Shown in pieces: positions 4,508 to 23,692 of a stretch of DNA of 26,101 nt. Location of the stretch: positions 1-26,101 of IMG/VR virus record IMGVR_UViG_3300030419_002465; one strand, given 5' to 3'. Position 1 is the stretch's first letter; every line of letters starts with the position of its first letter. The notes beneath the pieces were generated by a model. It worked only from the letters and a program-made list of their open reading frames with translations, ran no database searches and was not told where the DNA came from. Both the position numbers and the translations under genes were made by a program. The DNA is from a virus.

Positions 4508-5554
4508 ATGCGTGAGTATAAAAAAACTGCATTGGTTCTTGGTGCAGGTGGCTTTATAGGAAGTCATATGGTAAAACGACTTCGTTCCGAGGGGTATTGG
4601 GTGCGAGGTGTTGATTTAAAGTACCCTGAATTTTCTCCTACTGAAGCTAATGAGTTTGTGTTGGGAGATTTAAGAGATGTAAATATAGTTCGTAGAGTAA
4701 TTAAATTTACTGGGTATCTGGGTAATTATTATAAGCAGATAGCGGATAAATTTGCTGAACCTTTCGATGAAATCTATCAGTTTGCTGCTGATATGGGAGG
4801 TGCTGGATTTGTATTTACTGGAGAGAATGATGCAGAGATTATGCATAATTCTTGTTCAATTAATTTGAATGTACTTGAAGAACAGCGTAAATTAAATGAA
4901 AATAAGGATATAAATGAAACAGTAATATTTTATTCTGGATCAGCATGTATGTACCCAGAACACAATCAATTAGATCCTGACAATCCTGATTGCCGTGAAG
5001 ATTCCGCATACCCAGCTGCACCAGATTCCGAATATGGATGGGAGAAACTTTTTTCAGAGAGACTGTACTTGGCTTACCATCGTAATCATGGTATGCCTGT
5101 TAGGGTTGCCCGTTATCACAATATCTTCGGCCCAGAAGGAACCTGGGAGGGAGGTAGAGAGAAAGCTCCAGCAGCAATATGCAGAAAGGTTGCTTACCTA
5201 CCCTCCAAAGGTGGAGAAATAGAAGTATGGGGTGATGGAGAACAGACTCGTTCTTTCTTATATGTTGATGAGTGTATTGAAGCAACCAGAAGATTAGTTG
5301 ATTCTGAATTTACAGGACCTGTTAACATTGGTTCTGAGGAAATGGTTACTATTAATCAATTAGTAGAGACTGCTGCAAAGGTTGCTAAGAAGCAAGTAGA
5401 AAAGAATCATATTGATGGGCCATTAGGTGTTCGTGGACGTAATTCAAATAATGATCTTATTCGTGAGAAACTTGGTTGGGATTACTCTCAAACTCTTGAA
5501 GAAGGTATTCGTAAAACTTATAAATGGATTTTGGGACAAATTAAAAGCAAATGA
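4508..5554 (+). CDS. GDP-mannose 3,5-epimerase-like SDR
   Basis: An extended SDR enzyme that resembles plant GDP-mannose 3,5-epimerase (GME), which converts GDP-D-mannose to GDP-L-galactose and GDP-L-gulose. Visible features: the Rossmann motif GAGGFIGSH (12-20); AADMGGAGFV (93-102); SACMYPE (145-151) with the Cys147 that acts in GME acid/base catalysis; Y176xxxK180; HNIFGPEGTWEGGREKAPAA (204-223) with the second catalytic Lys, K219; and VRGRNSNN (308-315). At 348 residues it is close to GME length. It is the first gene behind the cluster promoter and overlaps the next by ATGA. GME specificity is well supported by the motifs; the product in the phage is inferred. Confidence 0.85.
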   Translation: MREYKKTALVLGAGGFIGSHMVKRLRSEGYWVRGVDLKYPEFSPTEANEFVLGDLRDVNIVRRVIKFTGYLGNYYKQIADKFAEPFDEIYQFAADMGGAGFVFTGENDAEIMHNSCSINLNVLEEQRKLNENKDINETVIFYSGSACMYPEHNQLDPDNPDCREDSAYPAAPDSEYGWEKLFSERLYLAYHRNHGMPVRVARYHNIFGPEGTWEGGREKAPAAICRKVAYLPSKGGEIEVWGDGEQTRSFLYVDECIEATRRLVDSEFTGPVNIGSEEMVTINQLVETAAKVAKKQVEKNHIDGPLGVRGRNSNNDLIREKLGWDYSQTLEEGIRKTYKWILGQIKSK

Positions 5555-12088: not shown

Positions 12089-12786
12089 TTATATCAAATC
12101 ATAATTCTGATCTTGAATGGTTGAGTATGACATATGAATATGGATTCTCACCAGAGAATACCATCATTTATGATCGGAGTGATGAAGTAAAAGATTGGAG
12201 TCATTTAGGAGAGAGTATTCGTTCTCCTAATGTTGGAGAGAATATCTATGATATAATGAGATTTATTGTAGAACATTATTATGATCTCCCTGATGTAAGT
12301 ATCTTTGTTAAGGGTAATCTGTTTCAACGTCCTGAAGAGAAGGGTGGAGAGAATTATTACACTACTAAAGAAAGATTTCGTCGTGCTTTGCAAGCAGAAT
12401 ATTTTTTACCTATAGAACGGTTTCATGATTCTACTTCTTTTGTAGTTAATGGGGGTGGATTTATTCAACCCACTTGGGAGGCTGTATCTAATAGGGAAAT
12501 ATATACGAGACATTTTTCAACCTTTCCAGAGATGTTGGATAAGTTATTTGTTAATGCTCCGCGTTTTCCTTATAATAGATTTGCACCAGGTGGGAATTAT
12601 GTTGTACCTAAAGCTAATATACTGAAATTTACTAAATTTTTCTATGAGAAGTTGCAGCATTATTGTTCTTATGAACCCCCTGACGAATTTCAAAGTACTT
12701 CGGGTGAATCTTATTTACTAGAAAGGGGTTTATATATGTTCTGGACTGAAGATCTAGTGGAAAAGAGAATACCAGGAGTATGGTGA
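12073..12786 (+). CDS. DUF3431-like putative glycosyltransferase
   Basis: A 237-residue protein with the pattern of DUF3431-type proteins: NVGENIYDIMRFIVEHYYDL, then PDVSIFVKGNLFQRP, and a late FAPGGNYVVPKANILKF motif followed by a YLLERGLYMFW segment. Family members are found in polysaccharide clusters and resemble GT-A transferases that read a donor and a protein- or sugar-borne acceptor. Biochemical evidence for the family is thin, so the role is inferred from position among other transferases. It overlaps the upstream gene by 16 bases. Confidence 0.55.
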   Translation: MDKKLVISNHNSDLEWLSMTYEYGFSPENTIIYDRSDEVKDWSHLGESIRSPNVGENIYDIMRFIVEHYYDLPDVSIFVKGNLFQRPEEKGGENYYTTKERFRRALQAEYFLPIERFHDSTSFVVNGGGFIQPTWEAVSNREIYTRHFSTFPEMLDKLFVNAPRFPYNRFAPGGNYVVPKANILKFTKFFYEKLQHYCSYEPPDEFQSTSGESYLLERGLYMFWTEDLVEKRIPGVW

Positions 12787-12788
12787 CT

Positions 12789-13280
12789 ATGAAGATTGGA
12801 TTTAATTGTAGTTCTTTTGACTTATTCCATGCAGGGCATGTCACTATGCTTAAGATGGAAAAAGAATTATGTGATTATTTGAAGGTTGCTCTTCAAGTAG
12901 ATCCTACTATTGATCGTCCTGGAGTTAAAAATAAACCTACCCAATCTGTCTATGAAAGGTATGTTCAATTGCAGGGGTGTAAGTATGTGGATGAGATTCT
13001 AGTGTATGAGACAGAAGCAGACTTACTTAATATGATTCAGACACAAACAATTGATGTGAGATTCTTGAGTGAGGAATATAAGGATAGGGATTTTACGGGT
13101 AAACAATATTGTATTGATAATGGAATTGAATTATACTTTCATTTAAGGAGACATCAATATTCTTCTACAGAATTAAGAAATAGGGTTTATCAATTGGAGA
13201 AGGAGAAGAGATCTGAGAATGTAAAAGAAAGTGTAGAACAATATTCTCCTAAATTATTAGACAAGTACTTGGATCAATGA
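12789..13280 (+). CDS. TagD-like cytidylyltransferase
   Basis: A 163-residue nucleotidyltransferase of the HxGH superfamily. FNCSSFDLFHAGHVTML (5-21) carries the H14-A-G-H17 motif, and YSSTELRN (124-131) is the ISSTxxR-type motif that closes on the triphosphate. RYVQLQGCKYVDEIL is the conserved helix-strand unit of glycerol-3-phosphate cytidylyltransferases. It probably makes a CDP-activated polyol or alcohol, although related enzymes activate other phosphates. ATG 12789 is preferred because homologues start MKIG-like; ATG 12780 is an alternative, overlapping the previous stop. It directly precedes rmlB with an ATGA overlap. Confidence 0.7.
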   Translation: MKIGFNCSSFDLFHAGHVTMLKMEKELCDYLKVALQVDPTIDRPGVKNKPTQSVYERYVQLQGCKYVDEILVYETEADLLNMIQTQTIDVRFLSEEYKDRDFTGKQYCIDNGIELYFHLRRHQYSSTELRNRVYQLEKEKRSENVKESVEQYSPKLLDKYLDQ

Positions 13281-14191
13281 CGGTATTAGTTACAGGAGGA
13301 GCTGGATTTATTGGTAGTAATTTACTTCACAGTTTAGTGGAGTTGGGTGATGATATTGTTTGTGTAGATAGTCTTACTTATGCAGGGGATAGGAAAAATA
13401 TTCCTTCATCTGTTACTTTATATGTGACTGATATTTCTGATACTCATAACTGTGAGTTTATATTTAAAAAGCATAAACCCTCTATTGTATTTCATTTAGC
13501 GGCAGAGAGTCATGTAGATAATTCAATTAAAGATTGTTCTAAATTTATTCAAACCAATATTGTTGGGACGGTAAATTTATTGAATCTCTCGATGAAATAT
13601 GAGGTGGATAAGTTCATTCATGTTTCTACTGATGAGGTATATGGATCTATAGATCAAGGATCATTTACTGAGGATTCATTGTATGATCCGAGGAATCCAT
13701 ATTCAGCCTCTAAAGCATCTAGTGATCACTTTGTAAAAGCATATCATAATACATATGGTTTACCTGTAGTCATTACTAATTGCTCTAATAATTATGGACC
13801 TAGACAGAATAAAGAAAAATTAATTCCTCAAACAATTCTAAATTTGATGAATGGAAAGACGGTTCCTGTGTATGGTGAAGGGAAACAAATTAGAGATTGG
13901 TTGTATGTACAAGATCATTGTGAAGCATTGATACGAGTGATGAAAGATGGTAAAGTTGGTGAGAAATATAATATTGGAGGAAGACAGGAGATTGCAAATA
14001 TTGATTTAGTGAAAAAAATTATTTCTATTATGGGGAAAAGTGTATCTATGATAGAATTTGTTGAAGATCGTCCAGGTCATGATTATAGATATTCAACAGA
14101 CATCACTAAGATTCAAAATAATCTATCGTGGTGGCCTAGATTTACTTTAGAAGAGTCTCTTATTAAAACTATTGAGTGGTATGCATACTGA
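13277..14191 (+). CDS. rmlB: dTDP-glucose 4,6-dehydratase-like (RmlB)
   Basis: A 304-residue extended SDR with TGGAGFIGSN (6-15), HLAAESHVDNSI (73-84), STDEVYG (117-123) carrying the diagnostic catalytic Thr118, Asp119 and Glu120, and Y142SASK146. NNYGPRQ and RPGHDYRYSTD are the RmlB substrate-binding blocks. The Asp-Glu pair distinguishes dehydratases from epimerases. It converts dTDP-glucose to dTDP-4-keto-6-deoxyglucose. It is slightly shorter than cellular RmlB (about 330-360). rmlC follows directly, but no rmlA is seen, so dTDP-glucose must come from the host or from elsewhere in the genome. Confidence 0.85.
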   Translation: MTVLVTGGAGFIGSNLLHSLVELGDDIVCVDSLTYAGDRKNIPSSVTLYVTDISDTHNCEFIFKKHKPSIVFHLAAESHVDNSIKDCSKFIQTNIVGTVNLLNLSMKYEVDKFIHVSTDEVYGSIDQGSFTEDSLYDPRNPYSASKASSDHFVKAYHNTYGLPVVITNCSNNYGPRQNKEKLIPQTILNLMNGKTVPVYGEGKQIRDWLYVQDHCEALIRVMKDGKVGEKYNIGGRQEIANIDLVKKIISIMGKSVSMIEFVEDRPGHDYRYSTDITKIQNNLSWWPRFTLEESLIKTIEWYAY

Positions 14192-14780
14192 ATTTGAACC
14201 ATGTAAAGGATGTATTCCTACATATGATTTCCATCCACCAGATACTGGTAATGGAGATTATATAAAAGAGGTGATGGTCAGAGAAGGGAAAGTATTTGTG
14301 GATGAAAGAGGGTTCTTTATGGAATCCTATAATAGAAAAAGGTTTGCGAATGAAGTTGCACCTTATACATTTGTTCAGGATAATCATTCAAAGTCTTCTA
14401 AAGGAGTTTTAAGAGGACTTCATTATCAAGTAGAACATCCTCAAGGAAAATTGATAAGGTGTACTCAAGGTTTGGTTTATGATATAATGGTAGATCTTAG
14501 GAAGTCTTCTTCTACTTTTGGGAAGTGGTTTGGTATTCATTTAGATAAACCTAACTTTCAAATTTGGGTTCCTCCTGGACTAGCTCATGGGTTTTATACT
14601 TTAAGTAATACTGCAGAGTTAGAATACAAAACGACTGATTATTATTATCCTGAACATGAAAGAACTTTGTTATGGAATGATCCTCAACTGAATATAGATT
14701 GGGAGTTGGTAGGAAATCCTATACTTTCTTCTAAAGATAAGGAAGGAAAATTATTTGAAGAGTGTGAAAAGTATGAGTAA
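14181..14780 (+). CDS. rmlC: dTDP-4-dehydrorhamnose 3,5-epimerase-like (RmlC)
   Basis: A 199-residue cupin epimerase. VFVDERGFFMESYNR (38-52), FVQDNHSKSSKGVLRGLHYQ (64-83) with the catalytic His81, VPPGLAHGFYTL (130-141) and AELEYKTTDYY with the catalytic Tyr region are all RmlC hallmarks. It epimerises C3 and C5 of dTDP-4-keto-6-deoxyglucose. Before the normal RmlC start there are about 27 extra residues with a CKGC motif and a HPPDTGNGDY stretch, unusual for the family. ATG 14181 overlaps rmlB by 11 bases; the TTG at 14172 is less likely. Confidence 0.85.
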   Translation: MHTEFEPCKGCIPTYDFHPPDTGNGDYIKEVMVREGKVFVDERGFFMESYNRKRFANEVAPYTFVQDNHSKSSKGVLRGLHYQVEHPQGKLIRCTQGLVYDIMVDLRKSSSTFGKWFGIHLDKPNFQIWVPPGLAHGFYTLSNTAELEYKTTDYYYPEHERTLLWNDPQLNIDWELVGNPILSSKDKEGKLFEECEKYE

Positions 14781-15591
14781 AATTTCTGTTTATGGTTCTA
14801 CTGGATTTGTTGGTGGGACTTTTTGTGATTTATTTCCTGAGGATATAATTAAAATTCCACGGGAACAAAGAGAACCAGCATCTAATAATATTCTTTATCT
14901 GATTAGTACAACAACTAATCATAATATGCTGACGGATCTTACTTTAGATGTGGATGTAAATCTTCGTGTTCTCTTAGAGACTTTAGAGTATTGTAGGGAT
15001 AAGAATATTACTTTTAACTATGTAAGTACTGGGTTTGTTTATGGTGCAGATATAATTGAGGCTAAAGAAACAGATTTCTGTAATCCTATAGGATTTTATT
15101 CTATTACAAAGAGAACAGCAGAACAATTGGTAATTTCTTTTTGTGAAGTAAATGATGTTAATTATCGTATCATGAGATTTGGAAATGTCTATGGACATGA
15201 TAAGACAGTTTCTTCTCAAAAGAATGTGTTGGGATTTTTAATAGGGTTAATGCGTCGAAATGAAGATTTGTCTTTATATAATAATGGGGATGATCTGAGA
15301 GATTATATGCATGTCATTGATATCTGTCGCGCATTAAAATTGGTAATAGATAGGGGTGATTTAAATACGATATATAATATTGCTACAGGTAATCCTTTAC
15401 CCTTTAGAGAAGTCTTAGAAATGGTAAAGGATAATTTAGATAGCCGAAGTAAATTTACTTCTATAGATACTCCAAGATTTAATCAGTTAACAATCCCAAA
15501 GAATTTTTCTTTGAATGTAGATAAATTAAAGTCCCTTGGATTTGAACCTGCAATTAGTTTAGAGGAGGGGTTGAAAATAATATGCCAATGA
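14773..15591 (+). CDS. NAD-dependent SDR, possible dTDP-4-ketohexose reductase
   Basis: A 272-residue extended SDR with GSTGFVG (8-14), YVSTGFVYG (83-91), Y109SITK113, RFGNVYG and RDYMHVIDICRAL. It lies straight after rmlB and rmlC, where an RmlD or another 4-ketoreductase is normally found. It is therefore a candidate for the reduction that completes a dTDP-6-deoxyhexose. It is not a typical RmlD, because it lacks the usual YVFDG segment. ATG 14773 lies inside the end of rmlC and is preferred over the TTG at 14755. Confidence 0.7.
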   Translation: MSKISVYGSTGFVGGTFCDLFPEDIIKIPREQREPASNNILYLISTTTNHNMLTDLTLDVDVNLRVLLETLEYCRDKNITFNYVSTGFVYGADIIEAKETDFCNPIGFYSITKRTAEQLVISFCEVNDVNYRIMRFGNVYGHDKTVSSQKNVLGFLIGLMRRNEDLSLYNNGDDLRDYMHVIDICRALKLVIDRGDLNTIYNIATGNPLPFREVLEMVKDNLDSRSKFTSIDTPRFNQLTIPKNFSLNVDKLKSLGFEPAISLEEGLKIICQ

Positions 15592-15599
15592 TGTATAAT
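15571..15599 (+). promoter_or_regulatory. Internal sigma-70 promoter
   Basis: TTGAAA (15571-15576), a 17-base spacer and TATAAT (15594-15599) span the end of the SDR gene and the only sizeable gap inside the glycan cluster (27 bases). Transcription would start near 15606, about 13 bases before ATG 15619, which has no Shine-Dalgarno sequence. It would give the second half of the cluster its own early transcript. Confidence 0.6.
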
Positions 15600-15618
15600 A
15601 AATTGCTTGCATTGAATT

Positions 15619-16920
15619 ATGTATCAACTGATTGATAATTTTATTGAATCCGCAAAGGAAATAGATGATGACATCTTTCCATTTATTGCGAATAAAAAAG
15701 ATTTTGAGCCTGGTAGGGATAGTGTTTATTATTCAGGGCCATATTGGGATGAATCAGAAGCAAGAGAGTTAATTCATTCGGTATTAAAAGGTAAGTGGTT
15801 ATCTTCTGGTGAGAAGGTTAATAAGTTTGAGCATGAATTTTCTAAGATGTTTAATTTTAAACATTCGGTGATGGTTAATTCAGGTTCATCTGCTAATCTG
15901 GTGATGATTGCTGCTCTTAAAAAATATTTTGGGTGGCATGATGGGGATGAGATTATCGTATGTGCCTGTGGGTTTGCTACTACAATTGCACCTATTGTTC
16001 AGTGTGGATTAAAACCAGTCTTTGTTGATATTAATTTTACTGATCTTAATTGGGACTTAGATCAAGTCAGAAAGAAGATTACTCCTAGGACTAGAGCATT
16101 ATTTTCTTCTCCTGTCTTAGGTAATCCTTATGACTTTGATAAATTTTTAGAAATTGTTAGAGATCATGGGGTAGAATACATTGCAGATAATTGTGATTCT
16201 CTAGGTAGTAAGTGGCGAGATGAATTTTTAACTAAGAATGCTGTGGCAGCATCTTGTTCTTTCTATCCTGCTCATCATATCTGTACTATTGAAGGAGGAA
16301 TGGTTTCTTCTAATAATAAAGCCATTATTGATCTTGCTAGAAGTTTTGCTTGGTGGGGACGGGGATGTTATTGTGTAGGACAACAAAATCTTCTTTCTAA
16401 TGGGGTATGTGGAAGGCGTTTTGATAAGTGGTTAGAGAAGTATGATGATATTGTAGATCATAAGTATGTTTTTGGGCAGATGGGATATAATTTAAAACCC
16501 CTGGATCTTCAAGGTGCAGTTGGATCTGTTCAATTGCTTAAGTTTGAGAAGATTCACAGAGTCCGTCGGAGAAATAAGTTCTTTATAGGAAGAGTCTTAG
16601 AGAAGATTCCTGGAGTGACAGTGATTAAAGAAAACTCTGTTGCCGAAACTTCTTGGTTTGGTATTCCTATTCTTTGTAGTGATAAGAAATTGAAGAGAGA
16701 TCTCGTTACTTATTTGGAAAAGAATAAGATTCAAACACGTAATTATTTTGCAGGTAATATTCTACTTCATCCAGGTTACTGTCATCTAGATGATGCAAGT
16801 GCATATCCTAATGCCAATCAAGTTTTAGATAGAGTATTCTTTCTTGGATGTTCTCCCGCTATTACTAATCATATGATTGGTTATATGAAAACAACTATTG
16901 AGAAGTATGTTAGCAACTGA
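15619..16920 (+). CDS. E1/RfbH-like PMP- and [2Fe-2S]-dependent hexose 3-dehydratase
   Basis: A 433-residue member of the DegT/DnrJ/EryC1/StrS fold. The usual PLP Lys is replaced by His220 in SFYPAHHICTIEGG (214-227), as in the 3-dehydratase E1 (DdhC/RfbH), which uses PMP without a Schiff-base Lys. It also has C192-x57-C250-x-C252-x11-C264; E1 has C-x57-C-x-C-x7-C for its [2Fe-2S] cluster, so only the last spacing differs. DHKYVFGQMGYNLKPLD is another E1-type block. Such enzymes remove the C3 hydroxyl from NDP-4-keto-6-deoxyhexoses with a partner reductase; SpnQ does so on TDP sugars. The upstream rmlB suggests a dTDP substrate. No dedicated E3 reductase is visible. Confidence 0.85.
   Translation: MYQLIDNFIESAKEIDDDIFPFIANKKDFEPGRDSVYYSGPYWDESEARELIHSVLKGKWLSSGEKVNKFEHEFSKMFNFKHSVMVNSGSSANLVMIAALKKYFGWHDGDEIIVCACGFATTIAPIVQCGLKPVFVDINFTDLNWDLDQVRKKITPRTRALFSSPVLGNPYDFDKFLEIVRDHGVEYIADNCDSLGSKWRDEFLTKNAVAASCSFYPAHHICTIEGGMVSSNNKAIIDLARSFAWWGRGCYCVGQQNLLSNGVCGRRFDKWLEKYDDIVDHKYVFGQMGYNLKPLDLQGAVGSVQLLKFEKIHRVRRRNKFFIGRVLEKIPGVTVIKENSVAETSWFGIPILCSDKKLKRDLVTYLEKNKIQTRNYFAGNILLHPGYCHLDDASAYPNANQVLDRVFFLGCSPAITNHMIGYMKTTIEKYVSN
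16900..16920 (+). repeat. Gene-junction repeat, copy 1
   Basis: A 21-base sequence at the overlap of the E1-like gene and the following GT11-like gene. It matches 21565-21585 at 18 of 21 positions, in the same reading-frame setting: EKYVS(N/D)-stop in one frame, MLAT start in the other. Confidence 0.4.
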
Positions 16921-17797
16921 ATTTCTTCACGGACAAGGATTGGGAAATCAATTATTTGTTTATGTTACTACTAGAATGCTTGCTCGTAAATTGGGGTATG
17001 AGTTTGGTATTACTGGACTAAAAGATGCTGGTGATTCGAGAGTGAATCAAAAGGGATTCTATTTTATGGATCTTGATTATGGTAAAGAGGTTCCAGAGGG
17101 ACTTACTAGATACGATGAATATAGACATGGAGCTCATACTGATCCACAGTTAAGAACTGATATCCGTTTAACAGATCAAAATCTTTTATCTATTCCAGAT
17201 AACCATATAATTTATGGTAGTCTCCAGTCAGAAGATTATTTCTGTGATCGATTAGATCTTATTAAAGAATGGTTGAAGGTAAAAGAAGAGTATGAACATA
17301 CGGATACAAATGGAAAAAACATTTGTGTTATAAATTTTCGAGGAGGAGATATTGTAGGAAATGCTGGAGCATATGTTCCCAGATCATATTGGGATAAAGC
17401 AATAGAAAGAATGAAAGAATACAATCCTCACATGGAGTTTTGTATTGTGACAGATGATGTTGCAACGGCTAATCAGATGCTTCCTGAGTATCCTGCATAT
17501 CATCATAGTATTGCATGGGATTATGTAGCAATTAAAAATGCACGTAATGTTATTTGCACTACCTCTACTTTCTCTTGTTTTCCTTTATGGACAAGTGAGA
17601 CTTTAGAGTATTGTATTGCACCTAAGTATTGGTTTCATCATAATCTTTCTCATGGATGGTGGAGTCTGGGATGCAGCATATATAGTTATCCTACTTACTA
17701 TATGGATAGATCGGGAAAGCTCTTTACACCCGACGAATGTAGAGTAGAATGGGAAGAGTATAAAAAGACTTCGAATATCTATGAAGGGGATTTATGA
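16907..17797 (+). CDS. GT11-like glycosyltransferase
   Basis: A 296-residue protein with GQGLGNQLFVYVTTRMLA (9-26), the N-terminal motif of GT11 alpha-1,2-fucosyltransferases, and NFRGGDIVG (143-151) at the position of HxRRxD, with Asn in place of His. CTTSTFSCFPLW corresponds to the ANSTFSWWGAW loop of classical members. The C-terminal part, rich in Tyr and Trp, is longer than usual. ATG 16907 lies inside the previous gene and is favoured over the TTG at 16898. It likely transfers L-fucose, L-galactose or a similar GDP sugar. Confidence 0.7.
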   Translation: MLATEFLHGQGLGNQLFVYVTTRMLARKLGYEFGITGLKDAGDSRVNQKGFYFMDLDYGKEVPEGLTRYDEYRHGAHTDPQLRTDIRLTDQNLLSIPDNHIIYGSLQSEDYFCDRLDLIKEWLKVKEEYEHTDTNGKNICVINFRGGDIVGNAGAYVPRSYWDKAIERMKEYNPHMEFCIVTDDVATANQMLPEYPAYHHSIAWDYVAIKNARNVICTTSTFSCFPLWTSETLEYCIAPKYWFHHNLSHGWWSLGCSIYSYPTYYMDRSGKLFTPDECRVEWEEYKKTSNIYEGDL

Positions 17798-20594: not shown

Positions 20595-21585
20595 TAGTGG
20601 AAGATTAATTCCAGGAGATAAGAGCGCTGGTGCTGTAAAAAATCATGGATCCTATATTAGGGATGAGAAGTGGAATCAAGTTTATAAGAATCCTTTTGAT
20701 TTTGAATATAGAGCTAGAGTTAATCCCAGAGTTGATTTAACTCAAGCTACCTTTATTATTCCGGTAAGGATTGAATCGGAGGATAGATTAAGAAATGTAG
20801 TAACTGCTATTTCTTTTCTTATAGAAAATTTTAATACTAATATTTTTGTTAAAGAAGTAGATACTGTTTCTCATTTTCAAAATAGGGCTCTTCCTAAGAT
20901 TGGTAAACTATTAGGAATTAAGTTAGATGTTCCTGGGACAAAAGGACTTCCTAGATTTAGATTTGCATTTGAACATAGTGATGATCCTTTATTTCATAGA
21001 CAAAAAATTCTCAATGAGATGATTAGTACTCTGAATAGAGAAACTACAGTCACATCTAATGTCATAGTAAACTATGATGCGGATGTTGTTCTACCTTTAG
21101 AATCATATACTCTTTCTTATAAAGGTATTTTAGATGGAGTATTTGATGTAGTATATCCCTATGGACAAGGTGAGTATCAAAGAAAAGTAACTGTAAATAA
21201 TGATCAATGTAGAAAATTTATATTTAAAAAAGACTATAGTATCCTTGATAATAATTCGGAAGTATCCACTTCAGATTTTGGGTGGGCTCAATTCTTTAGA
21301 AAGAAGACTTATATAGAAGGGGGAATGGAGAATGAAAACTTTAAAGCATATGCTCCGGAAGATAAAGAAAGATTTTATAGGTTTAATACTCTAGGATATA
21401 GAGTAGGAAGAATAGATAATGTTGTTTATCATTTAGAGCATGCACGGGGTGAAAATTCATGGTTTACAAATCCCCATATGGAGTCTAATATGGGTGAGTG
21501 GAATAAGATTCAACAAATGAATAAGGAACAACTGTTACAATATTATTCTGAGCAGCAGTATCTGGAGAAATATGTTAGCGACTAA
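20587..21585 (+). CDS. Chondroitin-synthase-like GT-A glycosyltransferase
   Basis: A 332-residue enzyme with an N-terminal IIPVRIESEDRLRNVVTAI segment (57-75), NYDADVVLP with Asp164 and Asp166 as the DxD motif, and a C-terminal block of galactosyltransferase type (GWAQFFRKKTYIEGGMENE and then PEDKERFYR). Such domains occur in chondroitin polymerase and beta-1,4-galactosyltransferases. A near-perfect ribosome site AGGAGGT (20574-20580) lies six bases before ATG 20587, the strongest in the cluster. The donor may be UDP-Gal, UDP-GalNAc or a uronate. Confidence 0.7.
   Translation: MTNSGRLIPGDKSAGAVKNHGSYIRDEKWNQVYKNPFDFEYRARVNPRVDLTQATFIIPVRIESEDRLRNVVTAISFLIENFNTNIFVKEVDTVSHFQNRALPKIGKLLGIKLDVPGTKGLPRFRFAFEHSDDPLFHRQKILNEMISTLNRETTVTSNVIVNYDADVVLPLESYTLSYKGILDGVFDVVYPYGQGEYQRKVTVNNDQCRKFIFKKDYSILDNNSEVSTSDFGWAQFFRKKTYIEGGMENENFKAYAPEDKERFYRFNTLGYRVGRIDNVVYHLEHARGENSWFTNPHMESNMGEWNKIQQMNKEQLLQYYSEQQYLEKYVSD
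21565..21585 (+). repeat. Gene-junction repeat, copy 2
   Basis: Second copy of the 21-base junction sequence at 16900-16920 (18 of 21 identical), again spanning the end of one gene and the MLAT start of the next. Confidence 0.4.
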
Positions 21586-22072
21586 GGAGGAATTCCTAAG
21601 TTCAAAAGAATGTGATTTTATTATTTCTTATTATAAGAAACAAAAGAAAACTATTCCATATTTTAAAACTAGATATATTCGTTTACAAGACATTCCCTTT
21701 TATCATTTTCGTATGAAGATGCTTTTAAAAAAATATATTAGAAATATAAAGAAAAACTTTCCTTTTTTAAAGTTAACCTATGGACAAATAGTACTGTGGG
21801 AAAATAATTCATCAAGAATTATGCATAAAGATACAGATATTCCTCTGTATAATTCTACTGGTACTGGAATTGTTGATTGGACTTCTGTTTGTTATCTTAA
21901 TGACGATTTTAAGGGTGGAGAAACTTTAATAGAAGATAAGGCATTCAAACCTAAGAAAGGATCTTTATTAGTTTTTAATAGTAAACAACTTCTTCATGGT
22001 GTAAATAATATTTTTGGGAATAGATATACTTTTATTCTTTGGTGGGAGGAGATTAAAAATGCTTGCGTTTAA
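21572..22072 (+). CDS. 2-oxoglutarate/Fe(II)-dependent oxygenase
   Basis: A 166-residue protein with the double-stranded beta-helix signature of prolyl-4-hydroxylase-like dioxygenases. Iron ligands are His85 and Asp87 (MHKDTD) and His142 (LLHGV), and Arg151 (GNRYTFILWW) binds 2-oxoglutarate. TSVCYLNDDFKGGETLI is the conserved core strand. Such enzymes are common in cyanophages. Here it lies between glycosyltransferase genes, so it may hydroxylate a sugar, or a protein side chain that then serves as glycan acceptor (inference). A GGAGA ribosome site precedes it, and it overlaps both neighbours. Confidence 0.8.
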   Translation: MLATKEEFLSSKECDFIISYYKKQKKTIPYFKTRYIRLQDIPFYHFRMKMLLKKYIRNIKKNFPFLKLTYGQIVLWENNSSRIMHKDTDIPLYNSTGTGIVDWTSVCYLNDDFKGGETLIEDKAFKPKKGSLLVFNSKQLLHGVNNIFGNRYTFILWWEEIKNACV

Positions 22073-22910
22073 TAACATTGGTAGTCTGGGAAGACTAGGA
22101 AATCAAATGTTTGAGTATGCTGCACTACGTGGTATTGCGGCTTATCGTGGATTTGATTGGTGTATTCCCCCAATTAATCAAAAGGGGATAGAAAATTACA
22201 GTCTTCATGAATGTTTTAAACTATCACCTGATGTCAGGTATAGTATTCTTCATGGTACATCATATGTGCAAGAAAGATTTTTTCATTTTGATGAGGAAAT
22301 ATTGACACGTTGTCCAAACAATGTAAGTCTTCATGGGTTCTTTCAATCCTGGAGATACTTTGATAATGTTCAAGATGAAATCAGAAAGGATTTTACTTTT
22401 CATGATTCGCATTTGAATCCATGTAAAGAGATGATGGAAGAACTTGAAGGACAAGAACCTATTATGCTTCATGTCCGTAGAGGAGATCCTAATCTTACAG
22501 ATCCTCGTGGATTTAAATGGTCCTATACTCAGTGTGGTTCAATGCATCCCGTGCAACCTATAGAGTATTATGAGAAGGCTCTGTCTAAGTTTGATAAGAA
22601 CCAACCAGTTATTGTATTTTCTGATTCAATGGATTGGGTTAAAGAACAGGAGTTCTTTTCTGGAGATAGATTTTTGCTTTCTGAACCAGTAGATAAATAT
22701 GAAGATGGATCCTTTACCCCTTATGCAGATCTATGCTTGATGTCTTTGTGTTCTCATGCTATTATTGCTAATAGTTCTATGAGTTGGTGGGGTGCATGGT
22801 TGATTTCTAATCCAAATAAGAAAGTAATCGCACCTAAGATGTGGTTTGGCCCTGACTACGCAGATAAGGATACTAAAGACCTTTATTGTCCCGATTGGAT
22901 TTTACTATGA
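22059..22910 (+). CDS. GT11 alpha-1,2-fucosyltransferase-like
   Basis: A 283-residue GT11 enzyme: GRLGNQMFEYAALRGIA (11-27), HVRRGDPN (138-145), QEFFSGDRFLLSE, and ANSSMSWWGAW. It shares these and the GFDWCIPP stretch with the protein at 19037, so the two are paralogues that arose by duplication or separate acquisition. ATG 22059, with GGAGGA (22044-22049) upstream, is preferred over the TTG at 22014. The donor is a GDP-L-sugar; the linkage is unknown. Confidence 0.8.
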   Translation: MLAFNNIGSLGRLGNQMFEYAALRGIAAYRGFDWCIPPINQKGIENYSLHECFKLSPDVRYSILHGTSYVQERFFHFDEEILTRCPNNVSLHGFFQSWRYFDNVQDEIRKDFTFHDSHLNPCKEMMEELEGQEPIMLHVRRGDPNLTDPRGFKWSYTQCGSMHPVQPIEYYEKALSKFDKNQPVIVFSDSMDWVKEQEFFSGDRFLLSEPVDKYEDGSFTPYADLCLMSLCSHAIIANSSMSWWGAWLISNPNKKVIAPKMWFGPDYADKDTKDLYCPDWILL

Positions 22911-23692
22911 ACAGAATAGAAGATTATTCAAAATTAAAATTGGAAATTGATCGATGGTTGAAAGATTATTATTACTTTCATGCCATCAATGCCTTTGTAG
23001 TAGGAGTATCAGGTGGAATTGATTCTGCCGTAGTGTCTACTCTTTGTGCTGAGACAGGATTACCCACATATGTGGTGTCTATGCCATTAATGTCAAGTAT
23101 GGAAACAGATAAATTATCTGATGGACATACTAAATGGCTGGAAGAGAAATATGATAATGTAGAGAGGGTACGAGTAGAATTATCTGGTGCATATGATCAT
23201 TTCCTTCATTGTATAGAATGGTGGAATGATGTAACAAGAAATAATAAAAAAGAATTTACTAATAATGATCTAGCAAATGCGAATACAAAGTCAAGGTTAA
23301 GAATGATTACTTTATATCAGATTGCTGGTGTAAAGGGTGGTATTGTAGTTGGAACAGGTAACAAGGTAGAGGATTATGGAATCGGTTTTTATACTAAGTA
23401 TGGTGACGGCGCTGTGGATATTGCTCCCATTGCTGACCTCTATAAGACGGAAGTCTGGGAACTCGGACGACACCTCGGAGTGAGTGAGGATATTATTGCT
23501 GCAAAACCAACAGATGGTTTGTGGGATGATAAGAGAACAGATGAGGATCAAATAGGTGCTTCTTATGCTGATCTAGAAGAAGCAATGGAGAATGGAACAG
23601 GCCCTGCAGTTAATATCCTTAAGGAATATAATGAAAAGAATAGACATAAAATGGAACCTATACCAACATTCAAACTAGGAGAAAAGACATGA
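22907..23692 (+). CDS. nadE: NH3-dependent NAD synthetase-like
   Basis: A 261-residue ATP-pyrophosphatase-fold enzyme. GVSGGIDSAVVS (33-44) is the P-loop, NTKSRLRMITLYQIA and GTGNKVEDYGIGFYTKYGDG are NadE blocks, and IAPIADLYKTEVWELG closes the core. There is no N-terminal glutaminase domain, so ammonia would be the nitrogen source. It would form NAD from deamido-NAD. In this cluster it may supply the cofactor for the several SDR enzymes and the UDP-sugar dehydrogenase, or be a diverged amide-forming enzyme acting on a sugar acid. ATG 22907 (ATGA overlap) is favoured over the TTG at 22886. Confidence 0.8.
   Translation: MNRIEDYSKLKLEIDRWLKDYYYFHAINAFVVGVSGGIDSAVVSTLCAETGLPTYVVSMPLMSSMETDKLSDGHTKWLEEKYDNVERVRVELSGAYDHFLHCIEWWNDVTRNNKKEFTNNDLANANTKSRLRMITLYQIAGVKGGIVVGTGNKVEDYGIGFYTKYGDGAVDIAPIADLYKTEVWELGRHLGVSEDIIAAKPTDGLWDDKRTDEDQIGASYADLEEAMENGTGPAVNILKEYNEKNRHKMEPIPTFKLGEKT

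Follow-up and report, generated by a model that had tools for sequence, protein, structure and literature searches.

A long-loop E1-type nucleotide-sugar 3-dehydratase in a marine, cyanophage-like virus, with a predicted dTDP-sugar substrate

The window analyzed here, a 26,101-base virus fragment from IMG/VR, encodes a putative E1/SpnQ-type sugar 3-dehydratase belonging to a diverse and almost wholly viral clade with an extended cysteine loop. Taken as a whole, the evidence is best explained, with fairly high confidence, by an enzyme of this kind that would depend on PMP and a [2Fe-2S] cluster, act on the dTDP sugar supplied by RmlB, receive electrons from ferredoxin, and contribute to a surface glycan. 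The virus is marine and cyanophage-like; its nearest annotated relatives are the Synechococcus phages S-H68 (filed under Kyanoviridae), S-B43, S-B05, RB11-B, and RN05-S. The gene lies in a long same-strand run of sugar genes that includes nucleotide-sugar epimerases, dehydratases, methyltransferases, and glycosyltransferases. Its surroundings and predicted functional residues are as follows.

12780–13280, + strand: small nucleotidyltransferase, HldE-C/TagD-like (TIGR02199, 55.7 bits, under the cut-off)
13277–14191, + strand: dTDP-glucose 4,6-dehydratase (RmlB), proposed supplier of dTDP-4-keto-6-deoxyglucose (TIGR01181, 404.2 bits, cut-off 365.1; CDP-glucose model only 116.8)
14172–14780, + strand: dTDP-4-dehydrorhamnose 3,5-epimerase, RmlC-type (TIGR01221, 234 bits, cut-off 155.75)
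14755–15591, + strand: SDR of the extended family with GxxGFxG and YxxxK present, may act on the 3-dehydratase product as 4-keto reductase or epimerase (Pfam Epimerase, motifs, conserved position)
15619–16920, + strand: long-loop (x11) E1/RfbH/SpnQ-type nucleotide-sugar 3-dehydratase, 433 amino acids, predicted catalytic His219 and predicted cluster Cys192/250/252/264 (Pfam, NCBIfam, PDB matches by sequence and fold, invariant residues)
16192–16194, + strand: codon of Cys192, putative first cluster ligand (ORF position, invariant in aligned relatives)
16273–16275, + strand: codon of His219, equivalent of E1 His220 at the PLP-lysine position of aminotransferases (lines up with the mutant 3bb8 lysine, invariant)
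16366–16410, + strand: cluster loop Cys250-x-Cys252-x11-Cys264, CYCVGQQNLLSNGVC (recurrence and alignment; lowest-confidence part of the AF2 model)
16898–17797, + strand: following ORF of the cassette (ORF call, no NCBIfam match)

Sequence comparison and structural modeling support the assignment of this ORF, which begins with ATG and has an intact frame, to the E1/RfbH-type sugar 3-dehydratases. The short gap between the SDR gene and its start contains TATAATAA at window positions 15594–15601, which is consensus-like only. Pfam DegT_DnrJ_EryC1 (the DegT/DnrJ/EryC1/StrS family) matches the protein at 241.5 bits, and the top NCBIfam model is RfbH (NF011936), a CDP-specific E1 equivalog, at 355.7 bits against a cut-off of 423. 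The best solved relatives by sequence are the E1 structures 3bcx and 3bb8 (E 5e-61), followed by ColD. An AF2 model built from 35 relatives, with phage and plasmid record rows left out, has a mean pLDDT of 86. E1 ranks first in Foldseek and again in VIA-align, with a Z of 47 over 383–385 residues (47.3 over 383), while the next non-E1 entries, perosamine synthase and ColD, reach a Z of 43. Residues 253–266 of the cluster loop fall below pLDDT 50, so that the model does not resolve the loop and gives no cluster geometry. The sequence-only reading of the gene as an E1-type Fe-S/PMP 3-dehydratase fits the sequence, the fold, and the motif, with its chemistry standing as a prediction.

The viral protein shares with E1 (AscC/DdhC/RfbH of Yersinia pseudotuberculosis), the CDP-6-deoxy-L-threo-D-glycero-4-hexulose 3-dehydrase, a whole-length alignment, the fold, a histidine in place of lysine, the C-x57-C-x-C spacing, and all four cysteines. 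It differs from E1 in the last cysteine spacing (x11 as opposed to x7), in having only ~28% identity, in having a dTDP-type 4,6-dehydratase as neighbor, and in coming from records without an E3-like reductase. Its cysteines lie at positions 115, 117, 129, 192, 213, 222, 250, 252, 264, 353, 388, and 411, and the spacing first read from the sequence, Cys192-x57-Cys250-x-Cys252-x11-Cys264, is exact. These four align with the cluster cysteines of the x7 family. A first spacing of 69 reported for some relatives reflects an extra upstream cysteine caught by the regular expression, the spacing itself being unchanged.

Two adjacent histidines occupy the active-site region (SFYPA-H219-H220-I). A histidine had been placed correctly at the position of the PLP lysine, but the residue named, His220, was the wrong one of the pair: 3bb8 is the E1 mutant H220K, and its mutant lysine (residue 220) aligns with His219, not His220. 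His219 and all four cluster cysteines are invariant in 40 diverse aligned relatives with loops from x7 to x13, whereas His220 is only nearly invariant, some proteins having Gln, Phe, Glu, or Thr instead; the Gln and Phe variants occur in some cyanobacterial proteins. In two long-loop proteins the second histidine is replaced by Thr or Glu and the first is retained, an observation in favor of His219 as the catalytic residue. A chance motif is ruled out by the joint recurrence of the four cysteines, His219, and x11 in 80/80 close homologues from viruses and one from Prochlorococcus.

On these comparisons, the x11 loop is a clade signature and no oddity. It had been described as unfamiliar, with a proposal to look for it in other phages; it does differ from x7, but it is common to every one of the 80 close viral relatives (64–79% identity) and to the Prochlorococcus protein. 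A viral motif scan, with the last cysteine spacing free to vary from 5 to 15 residues, covered at least 120 viral stretches and found, among the matches listed and classified, at least 67 x11, at least 40 x12, at least 6 x13, and at least 5 x7 loops. The RfbH proteins from 386 cyanobacterial genomes are x7, and two other homologues in these genomes, like those of the phages ACG-2014f and S-CAM7, are without the Cys250/252 pair. In a tree of 121 proteins, computed with the loop columns excluded, loop class changes 5 times, against a possible minimum of 4 and a shuffled mean of 58. A single branch sets the x7 proteins apart from all others (support 100), another does so for the x13 proteins, and one group (99) gathers 48 of the 51 x11 proteins, including that of the window. 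A sequencing or frameshift artefact is ruled out, the same x11 loop recurring across 80 viral contigs, isolates including S-H68, and a Prochlorococcus chromosome.

As far as these sequences extend, the long-loop clade is large, diverse, and almost wholly viral. Among the 386 cyanobacterial genomes, the long-loop enzyme occurs only in Prochlorococcus AG-347-J21, and 398 genomes of the Halobacillus phylum gave two matches at the pattern level that are taken as chance. A cellular reservoir was rejected within this scope, other phyla being covered only by a close-relative scan. The phage origin proposed for the 3-dehydratase is borne out by sequence.

The gene neighborhood favors a dTDP sugar over the CDP sugar. 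Two references served to type the neighboring 4,6-dehydratases: the RmlB of the window, and an Azospirillum plasmid enzyme annotated as CDP-glucose 4,6-dehydratase. Of the long-loop viral loci, 98 (70 x11, 23 x12, 5 x13) have a neighboring 4,6-dehydratase; all of these carry the dTDP type and none the CDP type, while all 19 x7 loci with such a neighbor (16 cyanobacterial, 2 plasmid, 1 viral) carry the CDP type and none the dTDP type. Curated models, which are independent of the two chosen references, give the same division: 51 of 51 representative long-loop neighbors match dTDP-glucose 4,6-dehydratase and none matches the CDP model at E 1e-55, and the x7 neighbors match the CDP model in 17 of 17 cases and the dTDP model in none. 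The window's own neighbor scores 404.2 bits as a dTDP enzyme and only 116.8 as a CDP-glucose (RfbG) enzyme. About half of the long-loop loci have no 4,6-dehydratase within 4.5 kb, many contigs being short, and since the loop classes are clades, the pattern reflects few independent events, making the link between loop and nucleotide a correlation and no proof of cause.

Loop length as the sole determinant of the nucleotide was rejected. On a Streptomyces plasmid, a 2,3-dehydratase adjoins an x7 enzyme in what is probably a dTDP pathway, so loop length alone does not fix the nucleotide. The same plasmid served as positive control in a search for 2,3-dehydratase (PF03559), which is absent from the window and from 14 related viral records. 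Characterized substrate preferences are CDP-4-keto-6-deoxyglucose for E1, GDP-4-keto-6-deoxymannose for ColD, and dTDP-4-keto-2,6-dideoxyglucose for SpnQ (PMC8987622). Because the SpnQ substrate needs a 2,3-dehydratase and the viral records have none, the simplest reading is that dTDP-4-keto-6-deoxyglucose itself is used. The consistent pairing of long-loop enzymes with dTDP-type 4,6-dehydratases likewise suggests that the viral enzyme probably works on this sugar, which lies outside the substrates of E1, ColD, and SpnQ.

The ascarylose route comprises a 4,6-dehydratase, E1, an epimerase, and a reductase. The window's set of RmlB, RmlC-type epimerase, SDR, and E1-type enzyme resembles this route with dTDP replacing CDP, although just 5 of 81 relatives have an RmlC homologue. 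An SDR homologue lies immediately upstream of the 3-dehydratase in 74 of the 81, and an RmlB homologue lies ~2 kb upstream in 46. The HldE-C/TagD-like nucleotidyltransferase immediately precedes rmlB in the window, S-H68, and RB11-B. An NAD+ synthase gene, nadE, lies within the phage glycan cassette at 22886–23692 (TIGR00552, 174 bits, cut-off 63.65); 8 of the 81 related loci carry a homologue, 6–7 kb downstream of their 3-dehydratase gene. A 2OG-Fe(II) oxygenase-like ORF, recognized by eye at 21572–22072, has no homologue in the DNA examined around the 3-dehydratase of the 81 relatives.

The RmlB neighbors could, against the preferred reading, serve a separate L-rhamnose route, given that rmlB also occurs in phages of other hosts and that RmlC is present in the window. 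An E1-type Fe-S 3-dehydratase would then act, like RfbH/AscC, on CDP-4-keto-6-deoxyglucose made by the host, with RmlB feeding L-rhamnose only. The closest solved relatives are indeed CDP enzymes, and the many cyanobacteria with an x7 RfbH beside a CDP-glucose 4,6-dehydratase suggest that infected hosts may hold the CDP sugar. This alternative is nevertheless improbable, about one-quarter as credible to us as the preferred reading: the 98 typed long-loop loci include no CDP-type neighbor, and the rarity of RmlC homologues means that an L-rhamnose route fails to explain the RmlB linkage.

Ferredoxin, of phage or host, is the likely electron donor by analogy, because an E3-like reductase is lacking. 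Taking a dedicated E3 as a protein with Fer2, FAD, and NAD domains, the search found no NAD_binding_1 domain (PF00175; E3/FNR-like) in the window or in 30 other viral records, mostly fragments, which confirms the initial impression that no such reductase is encoded. Fer2 (2Fe-2S) ferredoxins are encoded in 7 of 18 clade records, and in S-H68 and RB11-B the gene lies ~12 kb downstream of the 3-dehydratase. Their distribution is not specific: one occurs in ACG-2014f, whose 3-dehydratase is cluster-less, and ten x11/x12/x13 records lack one. The phage ferredoxin as a dedicated partner was rejected, its gene being kilobases away and also present in ACG-2014f. On the host side, a single NAD_binding_1 reductase domain occurs in 6 of 7 cyanobacterial genomes tested, and a host reductase domain was found in a Prochlorococcus genome, which together with the phage Fer2 genes makes ferredoxin/FNR a possible donor. 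The suggestion that host ferredoxin may serve holds in that ferredoxin is a plausible donor, but the source need not be the host alone, given how often the clade's phages have a 2Fe-2S ferredoxin gene of their own.

SpnQ, from the spinosyn pathway, offers a precedent, accepting electrons from ferredoxin or flavodoxin with their reductases instead of from E3 (PMC8987622). By analogy, the viral enzyme is predicted to resemble SpnQ in its dTDP sugar, in a ferredoxin/flavodoxin donor other than E3, and in its chemistry. It would differ in that SpnQ takes a 2,6-dideoxy sugar whose synthesis involves a 2,3-dehydratase, a comparison made by description. ColD is similar in its DegT fold, catalytic histidine, and C3-deoxygenation (predicted for the viral enzyme), and unlike it in having no Fe-S cluster and belonging to a GDP-mannose pathway, whereas the window enzyme has all four cysteines. 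The cyanophages ACG-2014f and S-CAM7 encode a cluster-less ColD-type 3-dehydratase that adjoins a GDP-mannose 4,6-dehydratase, an arrangement that represents a further route to a 3-deoxy sugar, one based on GDP, within the same phage group.

These comparisons also bear on a second alternative, in which the protein would be a conventional PLP aminotransferase or a 3-dehydratase like ColD with no working cluster. The RN05-S and RB11-B homologues are annotated as 'DegT/DnrJ/EryC1/StrS aminotransferase', ColD follows as the next 3-dehydratase among the PDB matches, and SpnQ can transaminate when no reductase is supplied (PMC8987622). Such an identity is very unlikely, as His219 replaces the PLP lysine in all aligned relatives and the four cysteines are invariant, whereas the ColD-type homologues of ACG-2014f and S-CAM7 lack the Cys250/252/264 group.

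The Prochlorococcus AG-347-J21 copy is nested among the viral ones in the tree. It lies on a chromosomal contig with the same SDR alongside, near genes that resemble argF, lexA, and ftsH when named by reading their translations. Nesting within the viral clade, together with the chromosomal setting and the shared SDR, suggests phage-to-host transfer, at least for this strain. The cassette itself is prone to shuffling: in 49 of 81 relatives the 3-dehydratase is immediately followed by a homologue of the epimerase/dehydratase gene at 4508–5554, a gene that lies ~10 kb upstream here. Such variable order would suit a recently captured host gene drifting without a special role in a phage-variable cassette, the least probable account of all, given the diverse, almost wholly viral clade with its single nested Prochlorococcus copy, the intact frame, the invariant active-site residues, and the retained pairing of SDR and 3-dehydratase.

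A phage copy of this enzyme is not new as such. The S-H68 copy is already annotated as CDP-4-dehydro-6-deoxy-D-glucose 3-dehydratase, ascC/ddhC/rfbH are listed as viral auxiliary genes (PMC10653327), and cyanophage LPS genes are known in general (PMC9602691). The homologues in the five Synechococcus phages named above are 73% identical at the protein level and sit in a comparable glycan cassette, its order differing from that of the window; x11 is seen in S-H68 and RB11-B as in the window. The worthwhile part is the long-loop, dTDP-associated viral clade; a limited search of open-licence papers turned up none that treats the clade or its connection with dTDP genes.

Under the preferred reading, RmlB would generate dTDP-4-keto-6-deoxyglucose, which would form a Schiff base with PMP in the 3-dehydratase. 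His219 would take a proton from PMP as the C3 hydroxyl leaves, and the resulting 3,4-glucoseen intermediate would be reduced by two single electrons through a cluster held by Cys192, Cys250, Cys252, and Cys264, with a plant-type 2Fe-2S ferredoxin of phage or host as the electron source. The SDR may then reduce the 4-keto group, and glycosyltransferases of the cassette could place the 3,6-dideoxyhexose on a surface glycan of the infected cyanobacterium. The phage thus probably helps to build an unusual deoxy sugar for the host surface. The general form of this proposal, that viral Fe-S 3-dehydratases with x11, x12, and x13 loops use dTDP and not CDP sugars, act directly on dTDP-4-keto-6-deoxyglucose, and in cyanophages draw on photosynthetic ferredoxin, is more tentative, and we consider its chances about even.

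For the family, the generic 'aminotransferase' label found in many marine phages gives way to an enzyme open to testing, for which a specific cofactor, substrate, and electron source are proposed. The division of loop lengths between dTDP and CDP neighbors provides a handle on how Fe-S 3-dehydratases recognize the nucleotide or the electron donor. If the general proposal is true, these viral enzymes would represent a fourth substrate class beside E1, ColD, and SpnQ, and infected cells would make dTDP-3,6-dideoxyhexoses, remodeling the cell surface during infection. Cyanophages would then couple ferredoxin to host-surface deoxy sugars, with possible consequences for superinfection exclusion and grazing.
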